Shown: piece after piece, positions 11,995 to 21,511 of the stretch
Layout of the letters: every line of letters begins with the position of its first letter
How positions within the stretch are numbered: the stretch's first letter is position 1
IMG/VR virus record: IMGVR_UViG_3300010299_000006
Span: 1 to 51,275 of that record
Length of the DNA stretch: 51,275 nucleotides
Strand: one strand, 5' to 3'
Source: a virus
The notes under the pieces: model-generated
The model's input: only the letters and a program-made list of their open reading frames with translations
Told to the model about the DNA's origin: nothing
Databases searched by the model: none
Position numbers and translations under genes: made by a program

Positions 11995-12011
11995 TTAAGT
12001 TATCAGTGACC
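11995..12011 (-). repeat. Cassette repeat copy 1 (GGTC variant)
   Basis: GGTCACTGATAACTTAA. It follows the hairpin GCCCCTC/GAGGGGC at 12012-12028 with no gap. One of only two copies with C instead of T at position 4. The start codon at 11984 is 23 nt from the C/A junction. Confidence 0.9.
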
Positions 12012-12033
12012 GCCCCTCAATGAGGGGCTTGTT

Positions 12034-12495
12034 TTATTTCTTGACCCAATAGCCTTTTACCAATAGTTTTCCGTCTTTGTTTCGTAGTCGGATTTTCTTG
12101 GTTTCGTCAGGGTTGAAGGTGTCGTTTACCACTCCGTCTATAACAGCTACGTAGTGGCGCTCTACCCAACAAATAATGTTTCCCTTTGGTATCTTGCTAG
12201 AGCCTAGGGTTATATTCTCATAAGTCTTACACTCTTTAAATACCCATCCCCAATCTTGCATTTGCTTTCTAAACCATTTAGACCTTGTTCGCACTCCATT
12301 GCGTGCAGATTTTTCGCCTCTATGACGATTCTTCTTAGGGTCTTTTGAATTACCTCTTGCTATTACGTTGTAAACCTTTAGATAATCCATTCCTGAAGCT
12401 ATTGCTACAGCTCGTGTTACGCAGTCGCCTGCGTGTTTCCCGCTGAAGTAGTTTGACCTACCCCCGTCGTTGTAAACCCATTTTTGGCTTTCCAT
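12034..12495 (-). CDS. Papain-like-fold cysteine peptidase-like phage protein
   Basis: The protein has 153 residues. Pattern: W-x2-NDGGR near the start, GKHAGDCVTRAVAIASG at about 20-36, a basic R/K-rich middle, a GNIICWVERHYVAVIDGVVNDTF segment and a GYWVKK end. The DC (candidate nucleophile Cys), the HYVAV His and the ND that follows fit the Cys-His-Asp arrangement of C39/papain-like folds, as in a widespread phage family. Target and activity are unknown; deamidase, peptidase or transglutaminase-like roles are possible. It belongs to cassette 2. Confidence 0.68.
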   Translation of the reverse strand: MESQKWVYNDGGRSNYFSGKHAGDCVTRAVAIASGMDYLKVYNVIARGNSKDPKKNRHRGEKSARNGVRTRSKWFRKQMQDWGWVFKECKTYENITLGSSKIPKGNIICWVERHYVAVIDGVVNDTFNPDETKKIRLRNKDGKLLVKGYWVKK

Positions 12496-12506
12496 AAAAC
12501 ATTAAT

Positions 12507-12523
12507 TTAAGTTATCAGTGACC
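12507..12523 (-). repeat. Cassette repeat copy 2 (GGTC variant)
   Basis: GGTCACTGATAACTTAA. It follows the long hairpin of the ORF-less cassette (12524-12573). The start codon of the peptidase-like gene at 12495 is 24 nt from the C/A junction. Confidence 0.9.
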
Positions 12524-12599
12524 GGAGGGCGCAAGCTCACACATTGGCCCTTTGGCCCACTTGCACCCCCTCCTTAGATTATAAATTTAAGTTATCAGT
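12520..12599 (-). ncRNA. Candidate structured RNA in an ORF-less cassette (80 nt)
   Basis: Two cassette repeats (12587-12603 and 12507-12523) enclose about 63 nt with no start codon at the usual 23-25 nt spacing and no sensible frame. The sequence folds into one long imperfect hairpin. GGAGGG (12524-12529) and CGCAAG (12530-12535) face CTTGCA (12560-12565) and CCCCCTCC (12566-12573), with a GGCC-CTTT-GGCC hairpin at the tip (12546-12557). If both repeats are processing sites, an 80-nt RNA would be released. It could instead be a cassette that lost its gene. Confidence 0.5.
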
Positions 12600-12603
12600 A
12601 ACC
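12587..12603 (-). repeat. Cassette repeat copy 3
   Basis: GGTTACTGATAACTTAA. It follows the hairpin CTAGGC/GCCTAG at 12605-12619, whose loop contains the stop codon of the upstream gene. This is the only copy without a following start codon at normal spacing. Confidence 0.9.
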
Positions 12604-12610
12604 ACTAGGC

Positions 12611-12964
12611 CTAGCCTAGCTTGATAAGATCGGTTTGGCGTAGGAATTCCGTGCGGTATCCATCGCTGAATTTAACCTCCATAAATCCGTTCGGACTCTT
12701 ATCGATTAAGTGCCCCATACGACCGGTGTTACGGCACATCACCTTGGGCATCGTGCGTTCGGCTTTGACCGGGACAACGATTCTAGTTTCAGGTACTTTG
12801 CTGTAGGTTTCGTAGAGGGCATCACCCTCTACGCCAAGCTCCTTTCTAGCCTTGTTAATGGCTTCACGTTGAGCCTGACCTCGTTTGTACTTGTTGGGGT
12901 CATCGCTGTATTGGTATGTCCAATCGTGCGCTTGTAACAGCTGTATAAAATCTACTTTGTTCAT
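12611..12964 (-). CDS. Cassette protein 3 (117 aa)
   Basis: The ATG at 12964 is chosen because it lies 23 nt from the repeat junction; an in-frame ATG at 12970 would give only 17 nt. The N-terminus FIQLLQAHDWTYQYSDDPNKYKRGQ and REAINKARKEL is a pattern I know from other phage hypothetical proteins. The C-terminal part (MGHLIDKSPNGFMEVKFSDGYRTEF) looks like a small beta-barrel. The TAG stop is in the loop of the next hairpin. Function is unknown. Confidence 0.68.
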   Translation of the reverse strand: MNKVDFIQLLQAHDWTYQYSDDPNKYKRGQAQREAINKARKELGVEGDALYETYSKVPETRIVVPVKAERTMPKVMCRNTGRMGHLIDKSPNGFMEVKFSDGYRTEFLRQTDLIKLG

Positions 12965-12974
12965 AAGCATTTTT

Positions 12975-12991
12975 TTAAGTTATCAGTAACC
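12975..12991 (-). repeat. Cassette repeat copy 4
   Basis: GGTTACTGATAACTTAA, directly after the hairpin GGAGGG/CCCTCC at 12992-13008, which itself abuts the stop codon of the upstream gene. Leader to the ATG at 12964 is 23 nt. Confidence 0.9.
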
Positions 12992-13008
12992 GGAGGGTGA
13001 TACCCTCC

Positions 13009-13236
13009 TTAGAACAATTGTTCAAATACGATATTTGAATCATCAAACACGACCTGAAACAATTCAGTCCAATCCTCGTTGCCTTCATCATCCAATGTTT
13101 GGTTGACTACTATCACATCTTCCTCGGTGTAGTGGTACAAGGTGTACTTATCGTTTAGAGGTCTCTCCTCACCATAATCCAAGCTATTTAGTAGCTTGAC
13201 ATCAATTTGCTCAATTGCATTGTCTAGTAGTGACAT
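13009..13236 (-). CDS. Cassette protein 4, strongly acidic (75 aa)
   Basis: The start is the ATG at 13236 (MSLLDNAIEQID); the longer frame beginning VTDNL is only translation of the repeat. The product is very acidic in its second half (EEDVIVVNQTLDDEGNEDW). Small acidic proteins of this kind in phages are sometimes DNA mimics or host-enzyme inhibitors, but nothing here proves that. Confidence 0.62.
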   Translation of the reverse strand: MSLLDNAIEQIDVKLLNSLDYGEERPLNDKYTLYHYTEEDVIVVNQTLDDEGNEDWTELFQVVFDDSNIVFEQLF

Positions 13237-13247
13237 AAGGTATAAAT

Positions 13248-13264
13248 TTAAGTTATCAGTAACC
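13248..13264 (-). repeat. Cassette repeat copy 5
   Basis: GGTTACTGATAACTTAA. It lies 2 nt from the hairpin CCCTC/GAGGG at 13267-13279. The TGA stop of the upstream gene is inside that hairpin. Leader to the ATG at 13236 is 24 nt. Confidence 0.9.
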
Positions 13265-13269
13265 ACCCC

Positions 13270-13536
13270 TCAACGAGGGATTTTTTTAGCACTAGCCTCA
13301 ACAGCCTCTGCAAGTTCATCAAATGTGATGTTTCGAGATTCTGCCTCTTCACGTGTTTTGAAGTACACTTTGTTAGGGTCTTCATCGTGCATCTCTTCAC
13401 TAACGAAGTCCCAAGTGCTCTCCACCACTGTAAAGATGTAAGGGTTCTCTCCATTGCTGTTTAACAGCTCAAGCTCTTTGAAGGATATTCCTTCTAAGGT
13501 GAAGTAAGTATCACCTTCTTCGAATGGGTATTCCAT
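13270..13536 (-). CDS. Cassette protein 5, acidic (88 aa)
   Basis: The start is the ATG at 13536 (MEYPFEEGDTYFTLEG), 24 nt after the repeat junction. Acidic, with a YFKTREEAESRNITFDELAEAV helix typical of short phage proteins that end in an Asp/Glu/Ala helix. The last codons (KKIPR) and the TGA are part of the hairpin preceding the next repeat, so coding and structure overlap here. Confidence 0.62.
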   Translation of the reverse strand: MEYPFEEGDTYFTLEGISFKELELLNSNGENPYIFTVVESTWDFVSEEMHDEDPNKVYFKTREEAESRNITFDELAEAVEASAKKIPR

Positions 13537-13547
13537 AATACATTTAA

Positions 13548-13564
13548 TTAAGTTATCAGTAACC
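13548..13564 (-). repeat. Cassette repeat copy 6
   Basis: GGTTACTGATAACTTAA, directly after the hairpin GCCACC/GGTGGC at 13565-13580. The hairpin lies before the stop of the upstream gene, which ends at 13586. Leader to the ATG at 13536 is 24 nt. Confidence 0.9.
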
Positions 13565-13585
13565 GCCACCCGAAGGTGGCTTTTG

Positions 13586-13807
13586 CTATTCGTACACCAC
13601 TTGAAATCTGGTTGGCGTTGCACGTTCAATCAGGTGCTTGATGTAGTCTCTAAATTGTGGTGCATCATCACAATCAAAAGGCGATACAATGACCTTGCAA
13701 TCATCGATGTTGGCATCGATTTCGTAGTAGTAGGTGTCCTCGTAATTATCTCCTGAGATAATGTACGTTATGGTGTTTCCTAGTTGGTAGTACATTGCGT
13801 AAAGCAT
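13586..13807 (-). CDS. Cassette protein 6, acidic (73 aa)
   Basis: The product begins MLYAMYYQLGNTITYIISG and continues with a Tyr/Asp-rich stretch (DNYEDTYYYEIDANIDD). It is likely a small beta-sheet protein with a C-terminal helix (FRDYIKHLIERA). Net acidic. Leader spacing 25 nt. No family recognised. Confidence 0.62.
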   Translation of the reverse strand: MLYAMYYQLGNTITYIISGDNYEDTYYYEIDANIDDCKVIVSPFDCDDAPQFRDYIKHLIERATPTRFQVVYE

Positions 13808-13819
13808 AGTTCAATAAAA

Positions 13820-13836
13820 TTAAGTTATCAGTAACC
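13820..13836 (-). repeat. Cassette repeat copy 7
   Basis: GGTTACTGATAACTTAA, directly after the hairpin GAGAGGC/GCCTCTC at 13837-13853. Leader to the ATG at 13807 is 25 nt. Confidence 0.9.
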
Positions 13837-13857
13837 GAGAGGCTTAGCCTCTCTTAA

Positions 13858-14157
13858 TCACAAGTAGTCGTTGCATATCTTGTCGTGTGCAAGGTTCTCA
13901 ATGTAGTCATCAGAGAAACCTTCATCGGTTTCTCTTTCCCAAAATCCTCTACGCTCTCTCGCAGTAGACTTTAGAAACTTTTGAATCAGATCGGACTCAA
14001 AAATATCTCCAGCAACAGATACAATACAATCGCAAGACTCGATATTGTCGTAAGGCATTTCTTTATGTTCTCGTTCTACCCTTATACGCTCCCAAGTTCT
14101 CGCTGTGTGTATCAATACATCGTTAAAGACCATAGTCTCATTAGCATTAGTCATCAT
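13858..14157 (-). CDS. Cassette protein 7 (99 aa)
   Basis: Two adjacent ATGs occur; the first (14157) gives the standard 24-nt leader. Contains an IHTARTWERIRVEREHKEMP helix, a CDCIVSVAGDIFESD segment and an acidic C-terminal region. No recognised motif. The pair of cysteines separated by one residue is unlikely to bind a metal alone. Confidence 0.62.
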   Translation of the reverse strand: MMTNANETMVFNDVLIHTARTWERIRVEREHKEMPYDNIESCDCIVSVAGDIFESDLIQKFLKSTARERRGFWERETDEGFSDDYIENLAHDKICNDYL

Positions 14158-14168
14158 AATACATTTGT

Positions 14169-14185
14169 TTAAGTTATCAGTAACC
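14169..14185 (-). repeat. Cassette repeat copy 8
   Basis: GGTTACTGATAACTTAA, directly after the hairpin CCCTCC/GGAGGG at 14186-14201. Leader to the ATG at 14157 is 24 nt. Confidence 0.9.
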
Positions 14186-14208
14186 CCCTCCATCAGGAGG
14201 GTTGCTCA

Positions 14209-14403
14209 TTAAAAATCGATGAGCTTGTCCAAATCAACAAAGGAGTTTCCACTCACCTCTTCTGCACATTCAAAGTGTCTCACAATCTCAATCTCTACTT
14301 GGTAGAATTTGCTGGTTTCGGGGTCTTGGTACACCTCGAATTCAACGCCATCTCCATATACGTATTCTAGGCGTTCGATGATTTCGTTTGTTAGCTTTTC
14401 CAT
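14209..14403 (-). CDS. Cassette protein 8, acidic (64 aa)
   Basis: The start at 14403 (MEKLTNEIIERLEYVYG) lies 24 nt after the repeat junction; upstream VTDNL is the translated repeat, not protein. Acidic alpha/beta composition, with strands FEVYQDP and KFYQVEIEIV and an acidic C-terminus. No family recognised. Confidence 0.6.
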   Translation of the reverse strand: MEKLTNEIIERLEYVYGDGVEFEVYQDPETSKFYQVEIEIVRHFECAEEVSGNSFVDLDKLIDF

Positions 14404-14414
14404 TGTAAAAGGTT

Positions 14415-14431
14415 TTAAGTTATCAGTAACC
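14415..14431 (-). repeat. Cassette repeat copy 9
   Basis: GGTTACTGATAACTTAA, one base from the hairpin CCCTCC/GGAGGG at 14433-14447. Leader to the ATG at 14403 is 24 nt. The base before GG is T, which would allow a fourth stem III pair with the ribozyme arm ACCA. Confidence 0.9.
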
Positions 14432-14453
14432 ACCCTCCAACGGAGGGCTTTGT

Positions 14454-14699
14454 TTAGTACTCTATGTAAGAGTCTTTGTGGGGGTACACCACATTGCGGT
14501 TTTTGTCAAACATACCACACTCAAATCTGCGTGCCTGTAGTGTTTGAGCTATGTCTATTAGCTCTTCATCGACAGCCCACTCTCTAAGAATGACCTCTAA
14601 CATCTGACCGGCAGTCCAATGTTCTGCTTCCCGTGTAATTGCATTCACAGCTCTTTCCGAGTGTGAGTCGTTGTGTAAATCTACAGCTGTTGCTTCCAT
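14454..14699 (-). CDS. Cassette protein 9 (81 aa)
   Basis: Contains NAITREAEHWTAGQMLEVILREWAVDEELIDIAQTL, a helical region, and a C-terminal YPHKDSYIEY. Composition is moderately acidic. Leader spacing 24 nt. No family recognised; a helical bundle is likely. Confidence 0.62.
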   Translation of the reverse strand: MEATAVDLHNDSHSERAVNAITREAEHWTAGQMLEVILREWAVDEELIDIAQTLQARRFECGMFDKNRNVVYPHKDSYIEY

Positions 14700-14710
14700 A
14701 TCAATATAGT

Positions 14711-14727
14711 TTAAGTTATCAGTAACC
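14711..14727 (-). repeat. Cassette repeat copy 10
   Basis: GGTTACTGATAACTTAA, directly after the hairpin GAGGAGC/GCTCCTC at 14728-14745. Leader to the ATG at 14699 is 24 nt. Confidence 0.9.
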
Positions 14728-14750
14728 GAGGAGCTGTTGCTCCTCTTAGA

Positions 14751-15119
14751 CTACTCGTAGTGGTTATTCAGGTCGTACAGCAAGTACGTAGTAACACACG
14801 TTGAGTCGGCATTGATTAGTGAGAGTTCGAATGGCTCACCTTCTTCATTGTTGCCCTCTTTGAAGTCCACTACACTCAAGTAGTCGAATGATTGAGTCAC
14901 CACCAATTTGTTGTCCTGACCTACAGCTTCCATCAGGAAGATGCTGTCAGGAGTCATTTTGATATCGGTGCGGACGAAATCCCTAGTGGATGAGTAGACC
15001 TCTATAGGTCCTTCGTTCGGCTTGGTTACCATTCCGGTAACCTCGTACAAATCTCCGTAGACATTAGGAGCGCAAGACCCAAAGGTCAGCGCTACAATAA
15101 CAGCTAATAAAGTTTTCAT
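14751..15119 (-). CDS. Cassette lipoprotein (122 aa)
   Basis: The ATG at 15119 (MKTLLAVIVALTFGSC) is chosen. It gives the normal 23-nt leader and a proper lipoprotein signal, with a lipobox-like TFGSC and Cys16 as the lipidated residue. The mature part is small and beta-rich (YEVTGMVTKPNEGPIEVYSS). An exported phage lipoprotein from an early or middle region may change the cell surface, for example in superinfection exclusion; this is inference. Confidence 0.66.
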   Translation of the reverse strand: MKTLLAVIVALTFGSCAPNVYGDLYEVTGMVTKPNEGPIEVYSSTRDFVRTDIKMTPDSIFLMEAVGQDNKLVVTQSFDYLSVVDFKEGNNEEGEPFELSLINADSTCVTTYLLYDLNNHYE

Positions 15120-15129
15120 AGTCATCAAT

Positions 15130-15146
15130 TTAAGTTATCAGTAACC
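15130..15146 (-). repeat. Cassette repeat copy 11
   Basis: GGTTACTGATAACTTAA, directly after the hairpin GCCTCC/GGAGGC at 15147-15161. Leader to the ATG at 15119 is 23 nt. Confidence 0.9.
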
Positions 15147-15170
15147 GCCTCCAGCGGAGGCTTAAGTCAA

Positions 15171-15341
15171 TCAAGAAAGCCCCTCAAGGGATTTCTTTGC
15201 TTTCTTCAGGTACTTGTGGGTAGCCTGAGCAGATTGAAAGTGTGCGTAGCTCTCACCCAATCCAATGAGGGTGTCGAGGTCTCTACGGATGCAATCGAGT
15301 AATTCGTTAGCTTGTTTCGGGGTGATTTGTTGCGTTGTCAT
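15171..15341 (-). CDS. Cassette protein 11, helical (56 aa)
   Basis: A 56-codon frame starting MTTQQITPKQANELLD, with LDTLIGLGESYAHFQSAQ and a basic end (KYLKKAKKSLEGLS). It is probably a two-helix protein. It is the first protein-coding cassette downstream of the ribozyme RNA; its 5' leader is the 3' product expected from cleavage at copy 12. Leader spacing 25 nt. Confidence 0.58.
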   Translation of the reverse strand: MTTQQITPKQANELLDCIRRDLDTLIGLGESYAHFQSAQATHKYLKKAKKSLEGLS

Positions 15342-15353
15342 AAAGCAATAGTA

Positions 15354-15370
15354 TTAAGTTATCAGTAACC
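15354..15370 (-). repeat. Cassette repeat copy 12, cis substrate of the second hammerhead strand
   Basis: GGTTACTGATAACTTAA. It lies after the hairpin CGGAAGC/GCTTCCG at 15373-15394 with TT between. The TTGGTT context gives stem III pairing with the ACCA at 15430-15427. Predicted cleavage is between 15367 and 15366. Leader to the ATG at 15341 is 25 nt. Confidence 0.88.
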
Positions 15371-15597
15371 AACGGAAGCACCGAAGCGCTTCCGCTGTTA
15401 TTAGTTGATATGCTCCCCATATCCCGTGGTTTCGCCCCATCTCAGGGGTCGAGCTCGTATGAGCTCAGGGTAGTAGATTGCTACCCCTCATCAGACTGAT
15501 TATAACTTAGTATCCAATAAGCAAAGAACGTCACTAGACCTAACTAGTCGGAGTCAGCGTTACGGCGCTTTGTCCCTTTTAACTAATTTAAGTTACA
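15367..15597 (-). ncRNA. Ribozyme-bounded RNA carrying a second hammerhead catalytic strand (about 231 nt)
   Basis: The 5' end would be made by the hammerhead at 15592-15641 and the 3' end by cleavage at repeat copy 12. Inside are TAAGTTA (15509-15503), a 3-nt bulge, TCAGT (15499-15495), the core CTGATGA (15494-15488), a G-C closing pair (15487/15434) and GAAACC (15433-15428). In place of a simple stem II, three hairpins lie between the core parts: GGGTAG/CTACCC, GAGCTC/GAGCTC and CCCC/GGGG. The arms are complementary to the conserved cassette repeat (UCAGU with ACUGA, UAAGUUA with UAACUUA, ACC with GGU). It has no open frame. Cis cleavage is likely; action in trans on the other repeats is inference. 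Confidence 0.75.
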
Positions 15598-15641
15598 GAC
15601 GCCTCTCGGCGTTTCGTCCTCTCAGGACTCATCAGTGTAAC
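15592..15641 (-). ncRNA. Type I hammerhead self-cleaving ribozyme
   Basis: On the minus strand all conserved elements are in order. Stem I is GTTACA (15641-15636) with TGTAAC (15597-15592). Core CTGATGA follows, then stem II GTCC-TGAGA-GGAC, core GAAA, stem III with ACGCC-GAGA-GGCGT closed by a GNRA tetraloop, and the cleavage triplet GTC. All stem pairs are Watson-Crick and no core base deviates. Cleavage is expected after the C at 15598, leaving a 2',3'-cyclic phosphate upstream and a 5'-OH at 15597. It lies 16 nt after the stop of the gene at 15657-15860, so it would trim that mRNA's 3' end. The 3' product begins UGUAACUUAAAU, matching the second half of the cassette repeat. Confidence 0.95.
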
Positions 15642-15860: not shown

Positions 15861-16090
15861 AAGGCATTTAATTTAGTCGTTGATTCGTTTCAACAATACA
15901 ATGGTACGACAGCTTTTTTAATTACACAAGGGTTATACACACTTTTTTTCACAATTGAGTATAAATACCTAGGCATCTAAATCTTGCCGTAGTATGACCC
16001 GTGCGCACGTAAGGGGCTGACCCAAGGTTGGTATCCATCAGCCCAAAGAAACGCCTGGAGCGTGGATGTGTGAGAGTGTGAGAGTGTGTT

Positions 16091-16116
16091 GGGTTGGGGT
16101 GTATGGTGGGGTGGGG
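16091..16116 (+). other. G-quadruplex motif
   Basis: Four G-runs (GGG, GGGG, GGGG, GGGG) are separated by TT, an 8-nt loop and T on the plus strand. This fits the usual intramolecular quadruplex rule except for the slightly long middle loop. It directly follows the GTGTGAGA repeats in the divergent region and could influence origin firing or transcription. Confidence 0.6.
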
Positions 16117-16722
16117 ATTGTTCCACCTAAGGACAGAACACCTCCGGCAACTAGTCTGTTCCACCTGATCAGCCAACCGATTGAAAGCTAGATAGTTACA
16201 TAGCTATAGCTGAACCAGTACTCTAGATAGCAAACGCTAAAAGTTTTGACAATCAATGCTTTATGTGTAGGGGGTGGGTTTGCAGATTCCACTTCGGGTT
16301 GCGTGCGCCAACGTTCTATACTATATATTATCCCCCACCTACGTATTACTCATCCCTTTTTTAACGGGTATATCAGTTGTTTAGAGCGCTTTTCAAGGGA
16401 CAAAAAGCTGTTAAGTAGGATCAAGCCGGTCGGGGGAGGTTTTCGTGCAGGAGAAAGGAGGATGCTGGCAGGAGCAAACAGCTACTCAAAGCTGTGCGAA
16501 CTGACAGTATCCGTGCCTCTTTTTTTTAGGGATAGTTCTTGCCGCTCTCACAAAGTAGCTGAGCGGGTCTCTGCTTGGGGCTCCGACCCTCCAGCTACAG
16601 AATGAGTAATTAGATGAAGCAAGAAGGATTCAAGTGGAAAGAATCCTGATTGCGTGAAGGAATCTAGAGCGAAGTTACAACTTTTTTCGGAGAAAGTCAA
16701 ATCAATATTTACGGGGGTTACA

Positions 16723-20923: not shown

Positions 20924-21511
20924 ATGCGTAGTATATACGACTTCTTTGTGCACCTGCCCAAGGCGTTCAATGACGAGATACAGATGGGCGATACCAGCCT
21001 ATATCTCGACCCGAAATTCAACGAGTTTAAGAACAGAAAGATGGAGGCCGAGGTGGTAGCCATCCCTGAAAAGTATGAGACCAACGTGAAGGTTGGAGAC
21101 ACGCTGTATTTTCATCACCACGTAGTCATTGCCGGTAACGGTAGAGGACAAGTAGTAAAAGATGATATCTACTATGTACGCTTCAACCCTAACAATGGAC
21201 AGGCTTGTCAAGCCTACGCCTTCAAGTGTAAAGACACCGGCAAGGTGGAGCTCATCTCTGATTGGATCTTCCTAACGCCAGAAGAGCAGAAGGACGAGGA
21301 GGTCACAGAATCAGGCATCGTAGTATCTACCAAGAAACCTAAGTACAACCAGTTCGGGTATGTGCTGTACGATTCCCCACGTGTGCAGGAGCTAGGGCTA
21401 AAGTCCGGAGATAAGGTGATGATAATGAAGAACACCGACTACGAGATGGAGGTAGATGGACAGATACTCTACCGTGTACATATGGACGATATCTACGCCA
21501 CTGGATTCTGA
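20924..21511 (+). CDS. GroES-like co-chaperonin domain protein
   Basis: The protein has 195 residues in two similar halves. The first half has VKVGDTLYFHHHVV. The second ends LKSGDKVMIMKNTDYEMEVDGQILYRVHMDDIYATGF, which follows the Cpn10 pattern GDKV ... G-x-E-V ... DGxxY ... R-x-D-I-(Y/L)A. Phages such as T4 encode their own GroES replacement (gp31) so that the host GroEL can fold the capsid protein. The place shortly before the packaging and capsid genes fits. Other Cpn10-fold uses cannot be excluded. Confidence 0.68.
   Translation: MRSIYDFFVHLPKAFNDEIQMGDTSLYLDPKFNEFKNRKMEAEVVAIPEKYETNVKVGDTLYFHHHVVIAGNGRGQVVKDDIYYVRFNPNNGQACQAYAFKCKDTGKVELISDWIFLTPEEQKDEEVTESGIVVSTKKPKYNQFGYVLYDSPRVQELGLKSGDKVMIMKNTDYEMEVDGQILYRVHMDDIYATGF

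Follow-up and report, generated by a model that had tools for sequence, protein, structure and literature searches.

Type I hammerhead ribozymes are clustered in phage and prophage genomes, where they have been proposed to cut long phage transcripts into operon- or gene-sized mRNAs; a start codon follows one of them, HHphage, at a distance of 13 nucleotides (nt) (Perreault et al. 2011, PMC3088659). Separate ribozyme and substrate strands are familiar from artificial trans-cleaving hammerheads, split by Uhlenbeck and in later work (reviewed in PMC6155905), while among natural hammerheads trans-cleavage has been shown for a schistosome ribozyme and suggested for cave-cricket satellite ribozymes, and a trans-cleaving double hammerhead has been suggested for Dolichopoda (PMC2837043). 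Natural hammerheads described so far mainly cut only their own molecule. Here, we describe a hammerhead catalytic strand, HH2, and a series of repeats complementary to its arms on the minus strand of the virus record IMGVR_UViG_3300010299_000006 (hereafter the window, that is, the whole stretch of 51,275 nt that was analysed). An earlier note on this DNA had proposed that HH2 cuts a polycistronic phage mRNA into gene-sized units, at all but one site in trans; its observation as a whole is real, and comparative evidence makes its trans reading likely.

RNase P is a natural RNA enzyme that cuts many different RNAs in trans, but it is an unrelated RNA that works hydrolytically on tRNA-shaped substrates and has a protein partner. 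With the phage hammerheads of Perreault et al., HH2 shares the catalytic core and the intergenic placement; whereas these form a complete cis ribozyme for each cut, a single HH2 strand appears to act on many sites that have no core of their own (PMC3088659). As in artificial trans hammerheads, the ribozyme and substrate strands are separate and recognition is by flanking stems, but those are engineered and HH2 is natural (PMC6155905). The discontinuous hammerhead of the mammalian Clec2 3' untranslated region (Martick et al. 2008, cited in PMC6155905) likewise has its substrate strand far from the enzyme strand, yet differs in having a very large helix I and one site in the same molecule, and the schistosome and cave-cricket hammerheads, unlike HH2, come without a dedicated set of mRNA targets that covaries with the enzyme (PMC2837043). 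The earlier note knew of no natural system of this kind, and the literature searched, which lay outside subscription papers and in which absence is not proof, likewise contains no natural hammerhead that acts in trans on a set of mRNAs.

A catalytic strand and twelve matched sites

The repeats have the form GGTY/ACTGATAACTTA (the slash marks the predicted cut), and a hairpin, of a different sequence at each copy, stands directly 5' of every one, its 3' arm running straight into the repeat (Table 1). GGTYACTGATAACTTA occurs in 12 exact copies, all on the minus strand at 11996-15370, and the rest of the record has none; the 12 matches to TAAGTTATCAGT without mismatch all fall inside this block, and with up to two mismatches there are 24 matches against 8.4 expected, a number reached in none of 100 shuffles. 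The cleavage position, H17, is T in 10 copies and C in 2, and a T before GG in 4 of the 12 adds a fourth pair to stem III. An ATG follows 11 of the 12 repeats, at a distance to the gene start of about 24 nt, and Pfam gives no function for the small genes between the sites. Sites 10 and 11 (12508-12603) are 80 nt apart, with only a large hairpin between them and no gene; a gene may have been lost here, or a small RNA would be set free. These counts agree with the earlier note, which had described twelve conserved repeats complementary to the catalytic arms, a cleavage position that is U in ten and C in two, a stem III of 3 base pairs (bp), or 4 bp in four copies, and a hairpin before each cut (seen at all 12) with a leader of 23-25 nt after it.

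The HH2 strand (15509-15427, 5' to 3' on the minus strand) reads TAAGTTA-TAA-TCAGT-CTGATGA-G...C-GAAA-CCA, with the core at 15494-15430 and both arms complementary to the repeat. Among 51 CTGANGA strings in the window, only that of HH2 is preceded by a 6-mer complementary to the repeat. For HH2 with a distal repeat, RNAcofold predicts a complete hammerhead fold with all three stems, reproducing the G-C-closed stem II and the stem I of 5 and 7 bp with a 3-nt bulge that the note had described; stem II hairpins and stem III also form, and in the predicted cis fold so do stem I and the stem II hairpins. HH2 has the core CUGANGA...GAAA with the 10.1-11.1 pair, its sites have U16.1, which pairs with A15.1, and an H17 other than G, and stems I, II and III are predicted; on these tests of sequence and structure it is classed as a hammerhead. 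The new part is one enzyme with many covarying substrates: hammerheads of the Perreault type have a catalytic core of their own for each cut site, whereas the window has two cores, HH2 and the cis hammerhead HH1, for 12 sites.

Concerted change of arm and sites

Pattern and model searches of IMG/VR contigs, some of them near-identical to one another, found HH2-type RNAs in 12 further virus contigs, and the 13 contigs including the window fall into two classes. Class A (the window and 8 others) has the arm ATCAGT and sites GGTH/ACTGAT, whereas class B (4 contigs) has the arm ACAGAT and sites GGTY/ATCTGT. The latter comprises a divergent HH2 in G019 (a 64-kb contig; model E 6e-5) with nine repeats GGTYATCTGT, together with G058 (10 sites), G090 and G091, all with the same arm and sites; in the 5-10 sites per genome of this class, every site has changed together with the arm relative to class A. 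Arm and separate substrates thus differ in concert between the classes, which is the behaviour that trans recognition requires and the covariation in related phages that the note had pointed to as a sign to look for. In the viral collection, six contigs carry at least two exact copies of the class A 16-mer and four carry as many of the class B 16-mer, and all ten have a ribozyme with the matching arm, so that relatives keeping the repeats with no complementary strand, named in the note as counter-evidence, are not seen among them. By predicted mean binding, all ten of ten ribozymes prefer their own sites over those of the other class.

The structure of the ribozyme is backed by covariation in both classes. 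The eight class A sequences align without change over the core CTGATGA...GAAACC, and the class B core, CTGAAGA (a variant at position 7), is invariant within its class. In the stem II region, 96% of cells are paired and 12 pairs show double changes, and the covariation score of the HH2 helices was reached by none of 500 shuffles. The loops of hairpins h1 and h4 match as UCU with AGA, UUC with GAA, UCC with GGA and UCU with GGA in class A, where two of the three pairs covary; class B has different yet complementary loops, GUGC with GCAC, that show no variation within the class. The ordinary stem II of type I hammerheads from other phages (e.g., L255) recurs in HH2 as h3, UGAGAU loop included, and HH2 thus resembles a type I hammerhead into which two hairpins have been inserted. 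Rfam models gave no match to HH2 even at E ≤ 5, presumably owing to these insertions, which is a limit of the models and not a defining chemical feature.

Neither HH2 nor, in the parts read, its repeats were detected in G031, G032, G036, G038, G043 and G044, large relatives whose portal is about 65-69% identical; the class A model also missed the class B ribozyme of G058, which a motif script found, and absence by model is therefore weak evidence. BLASTN of the site cluster and both ribozyme classes against annotated phages gave no match, and no cultured phage with HH2 was found. The stem II/GAAACC pattern picked out at least 119 stretches of genome contigs, and a model search among the 80 listed gave no convincing HH2, while a last viral scan for class B ribozymes with a loose pattern gave nothing new among the matches listed. 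The nearest annotated matches of the portal protein, 29-32% identical, are one Caudoviricetes record and phages of Flavobacterium and other Flavobacteriia, so that the host is likely a Flavobacteria-like bacterium.

Site positions under constraint

A relaxed scan of early regions, which admitted sites that have a hairpin and a start codon and depart from GGTT and the six-base target at one position at most, yielded 59 class A and 33 class B sites (92 in all, those of related phages counted separately) with 15 single deviations. Thirteen of these are at H17 (12 C, 1 A and no G); of the remaining two, one in L265 keeps a G-U pair and one in L454 breaks a pair. In a separate pattern search that left the position free, U16.1 is T in 88 of 88 distinct sites. 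Since invariance at positions fixed in a search pattern is circular, the evidence here is confined to the free positions and the relaxed scan. A hairpin precedes 98 of 101 pattern matches, compared with 29% of positions drawn at random. Class B keeps GGTYATCTGT constant but varies in the bases that follow the six-base target; the conserved block is thus what a hammerhead needs, including the GGU that would be left on the upstream product. The core predicted to be recognised is about 6 bp of stem I, the A15.1-U16.1 pair and two C-G pairs in stem III.

These constraints bear on two other explanations. HH2 might cut only the nearest site in cis, the other repeats being kept, for example, for translation initiation, with spacers copied from one ancestor. 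Every HH2 does have a cis-placed site, part of the repeat appears to be a general leader, as AACTTAA also stands behind cis hammerheads, and neighbouring genes are reshuffled at the repeats, so that spacers do move. Cis-only cutting is nevertheless quite unlikely, since all distal sites changed together with the arm, what is conserved in class B is the ribozyme-paired part, GGU included, rather than the leader, and a rule of never G at H17 would be meaningless without cleavage. Alternatively, the HH2 RNA might be an antisense regulator of translation or stability that binds leaders without cutting them, as complementarity across the leader 10-25 nt before the start codon would allow; such a regulator has no need for an intact CUGAnGA/GAAA core, U16.1 or a non-G H17, all of which are kept, and homologous genes have cis hammerheads instead, which makes it very unlikely. 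The H17 rule, together with the concerted change between the two classes, rather supports the interpretation of the repeats as trans targets.

Leaders, cis hammerheads and gene cassettes

TAAGTTA, the outer arm, occurs in the window, L018, L035, L048 and L039, and class B has a shorter equivalent; L006, L008, L014 and L075 lack it, although AACTTAA is retained in many of their repeats. The same leader follows cis hammerheads (/TGTAACTTAAATTA). Given its retention where the outer arm is lost and its presence behind cis hammerheads, AACTTAA is more likely a translation leader that some lineages also use for extra pairing. Of the arm pairing described in the note, the inner arm holds at every site of the window, whereas the outer arm of 7 bp does not extend to the four lineages that lack it.

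Cis type I hammerheads lie at gene boundaries both in relatives of the window and in more distant ones, in line with the proposal of gene-sized mRNAs (Perreault et al. 2011, PMC3088659). The distant helicase relatives L105, L120, L130, L131, L133 and L438 have 1-3 of them between early genes, and behind each stands a leader specific to the clade (TCAAACTTCAAA or TTAACCA). Genes of one protein family (28-29% identity, E 1e-7 to 5e-8) are preceded by a cis hammerhead in L265 and L266 and by a trans site in L267 and L269, the distance from cut to ATG being 22 and 31 nt in cis versus 24 nt in trans.

In a comparison of the window with L267 and L269, the repeat is the exact point at which upstream genes with their hairpins and downstream genes with their leaders have been recombined; the sites thus serve in addition as joints through which cassettes of small genes are exchanged. 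That the repeats are mainly recombination junctions, as these exact joints would allow, is barely credible, since this accounts for neither the ribozyme arm nor the H17 pattern; the swapping may be a by-product. A protein, either an endoribonuclease or RNA polymerase at a promoter, might instead recognise the hairpin and repeat, HH2 merely resembling the site. A hairpin with a short fixed sequence is a typical protein site; however, none of the 31 repeats examined has a Bacteroidetes-type TANNTTTG promoter element nearby, and the repeats were rejected as promoters for this reason. The hairpins in the window have no U-tract and are thus not intrinsic terminators, and changes in the sites are matched in the complementary arm of the ribozyme; recognition by a protein is extremely unlikely.

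Proposed mechanism and its difficulties

Judged from sequence, one phage hammerhead strand very probably cuts a polycistronic early mRNA at matched sites, the nearest in cis and the others in trans or over a long range, and it would with good probability represent a natural trans-acting small ribozyme of phages, directed at about ten mRNAs by an enzyme/substrate code that differs between clades and so forms orthogonal sets. From the hammerhead core and fold, the complementarity and concerted change of arm and sites, the H17 rule, the helix covariation and the replacement of cis hammerheads, we infer cleavage itself, the action of one ribozyme on several molecules and a purpose in mRNA processing or stabilisation.

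In this model, the ribozyme strand is encoded in front of a series of small early genes, with a matched substrate at nearly every later gene boundary, consisting of hairpin, GGUH, inner target (ACUGAU here), AU-rich leader and AUG. It would fold round the extended stem II (h1-h3) and the h1-h4 kissing loop, base-pair in cis to the nearest site and in trans or over a long range to the rest, and cut after H17. The upstream mRNA would then end in the hairpin and a GGUH-2',3'-cyclic phosphate, and the downstream mRNA would start with a leader of about 24 nt bearing a 5'-OH; with up to 14 neighbouring genes tagged in the phage family, a long shared messenger would be divided into single-gene pieces. 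The arrangement suggests that cutting gives each gene a 3' end protected by the hairpin and a short AU-rich 5' leader.

Several points weigh against such a mechanism. Stem III in trans would have only 3 bp in the model, and after cis cleavage the ribozyme's own 3' GGUH tail would compete for the same CC. The 12-bp stem I of the window should slow product release, whereas several relatives have about 6 bp. With one ribozyme per transcript, 11 further sites in the window and up to 13 in the family would depend on the same strand, which calls for multiple turnover or an extra ribozyme supply. Moreover, the preference for own sites falls to a mere 0.2 kcal/mol in L430, by predicted energy some unrelated genomic 20-mers bind as well, the deviating class B site in L454, GGTTAGCTGT, breaks a stem I pair, the sites of related phages are not independent, and the apparent replacement of cis by trans sites comes from a single family of weakly similar proteins. 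These difficulties bear on the kinetics, yet they give no other explanation of the concerted change.

HH1 and other features of the locus

HH1, an ordinary type I cis hammerhead upstream of HH2, scores 29.7 bits (E 2.7e-4) against Rfam RF00163, whose gathering score is 34 bits. At the gathering threshold Rfam has no match in the window, and at E ≤ 5 it has HH1 alone; a hammerhead of textbook type I form would thus escape annotation pipelines. The stretch of RNA from the predicted cut of HH1 to that of the HH2 cis site spans 15597-15367 (231 nt), exactly as the note had placed it, but HH1 was not found upstream of HH2 in the close relatives L267 and L269, so that this excised RNA would be peculiar to the window phage or its closest kin and not general.

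An element, GTTCTTTGACATT, lies 25-31 nt before the HH2 arm in most copies, among them those of L249 (about 1194), L430, L454 and L457; a similar sequence precedes the 16S gene of a Spirosoma genome (L468) by 67 nt. By this analogy, it may be a boxA-like antitermination site for the operon. In two contigs, a match to TTG-N19-TANNTTTG, the Bacteroidetes promoter consensus, precedes class B HH2 by about 50 nt, and HH2 would accordingly be the first product of the early operon. Tandem GAGCTGACGAGCTG-like repeats upstream of class B ribozymes (L249:1030-1100; L430, about 13850) contain CTGACGAG, a hammerhead core string. Elsewhere in the window, a G-rich low-complexity segment (gtgtgagagtgtgagagtgtgttgggttggggtg) at 16060-16130 occupies the gap between divergent gene blocks, and a protein with a C-terminal GroES-like (Cpn10) domain is encoded at 20924-21511, two genes before the terminase gene.

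Table 1. Coordinates of the HH2 locus and its predicted cleavage sites in the window
Feature	Position	Strand	Basis or remark
HH1, cut predicted between 15598 and 15597	15592..15641	minus	
GTTCTTTG(ACATT) element, rRNA-leader boxA-like	15514..15529	minus	upstream of most HH2 copies, with variants
Outer arm TAAGTTA, pairs with site TAACTTA	15503..15509	minus	sequence and fold; not in all lineages
Inner arm ATCAGT, stem I with ACTGAT of every site (class B: ACAGAT with ATCTGT)	15495..15500	minus	
Catalytic core CTGATGA (C3-A9)	15488..15494	minus	invariant in class A; class B CTGAAGA
Stem II region, G10.1-C11.1 closing h1-h3	15434..15487	minus	covariation
Stem II hairpins h1, h2 and h3 (ordinary stem II loop UGAGAU)	15486-15468, 15467-15450, 15448-15435	minus	
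GAAA core (G12 A13 A14 A15.1) and stem III strand CC(A)	15427..15433	minus	GAAACC invariant in both classes
Hairpin h4, 3' of stem III strand; loop 15416-15414 kisses h1 loop 15477-15475	15407..15423	minus	
Hairpin directly 5' of nearest (cis) site	15371..15397	minus	sequence and fold
Site 1, cis-placed, GGTT/ACTGATAACTTA, cut predicted between 15367 and 15366	15355..15370	minus	
Site 2 (trans)	15131..15146	minus	sequence
Site 3 (trans)	14712..14727	minus	sequence
Site 4 (trans)	14416..14431	minus	sequence
Site 5 (trans)	14170..14185	minus	sequence
Site 6 (trans)	13821..13836	minus	sequence
Site 7 (trans)	13549..13564	minus	sequence
Site 8 (trans)	13249..13264	minus	sequence
Site 9 (trans)	12976..12991	minus	sequence
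Site 10 (trans), the repeat without ATG; no gene between sites 10 and 11	12588..12603	minus	
Site 11 (trans), H17 = C	12508..12523	minus	sequence
Site 12 (trans), H17 = C, last in series	11996..12011	minus	sequence

Implications

If cleavage is confirmed, HH2 would be a natural small nucleolytic ribozyme that acts as a true enzyme on other RNAs; such trans activity has long been engineered, but a natural case with dedicated targets is not described in the literature searched. It would constitute an RNA-only processing system able to replace a series of cis ribozymes, and its two classes would be orthogonal pairs of ribozyme and substrate that evolution has shaped in cells. For the phages themselves, it would provide a concrete function for hammerheads near phage genes.

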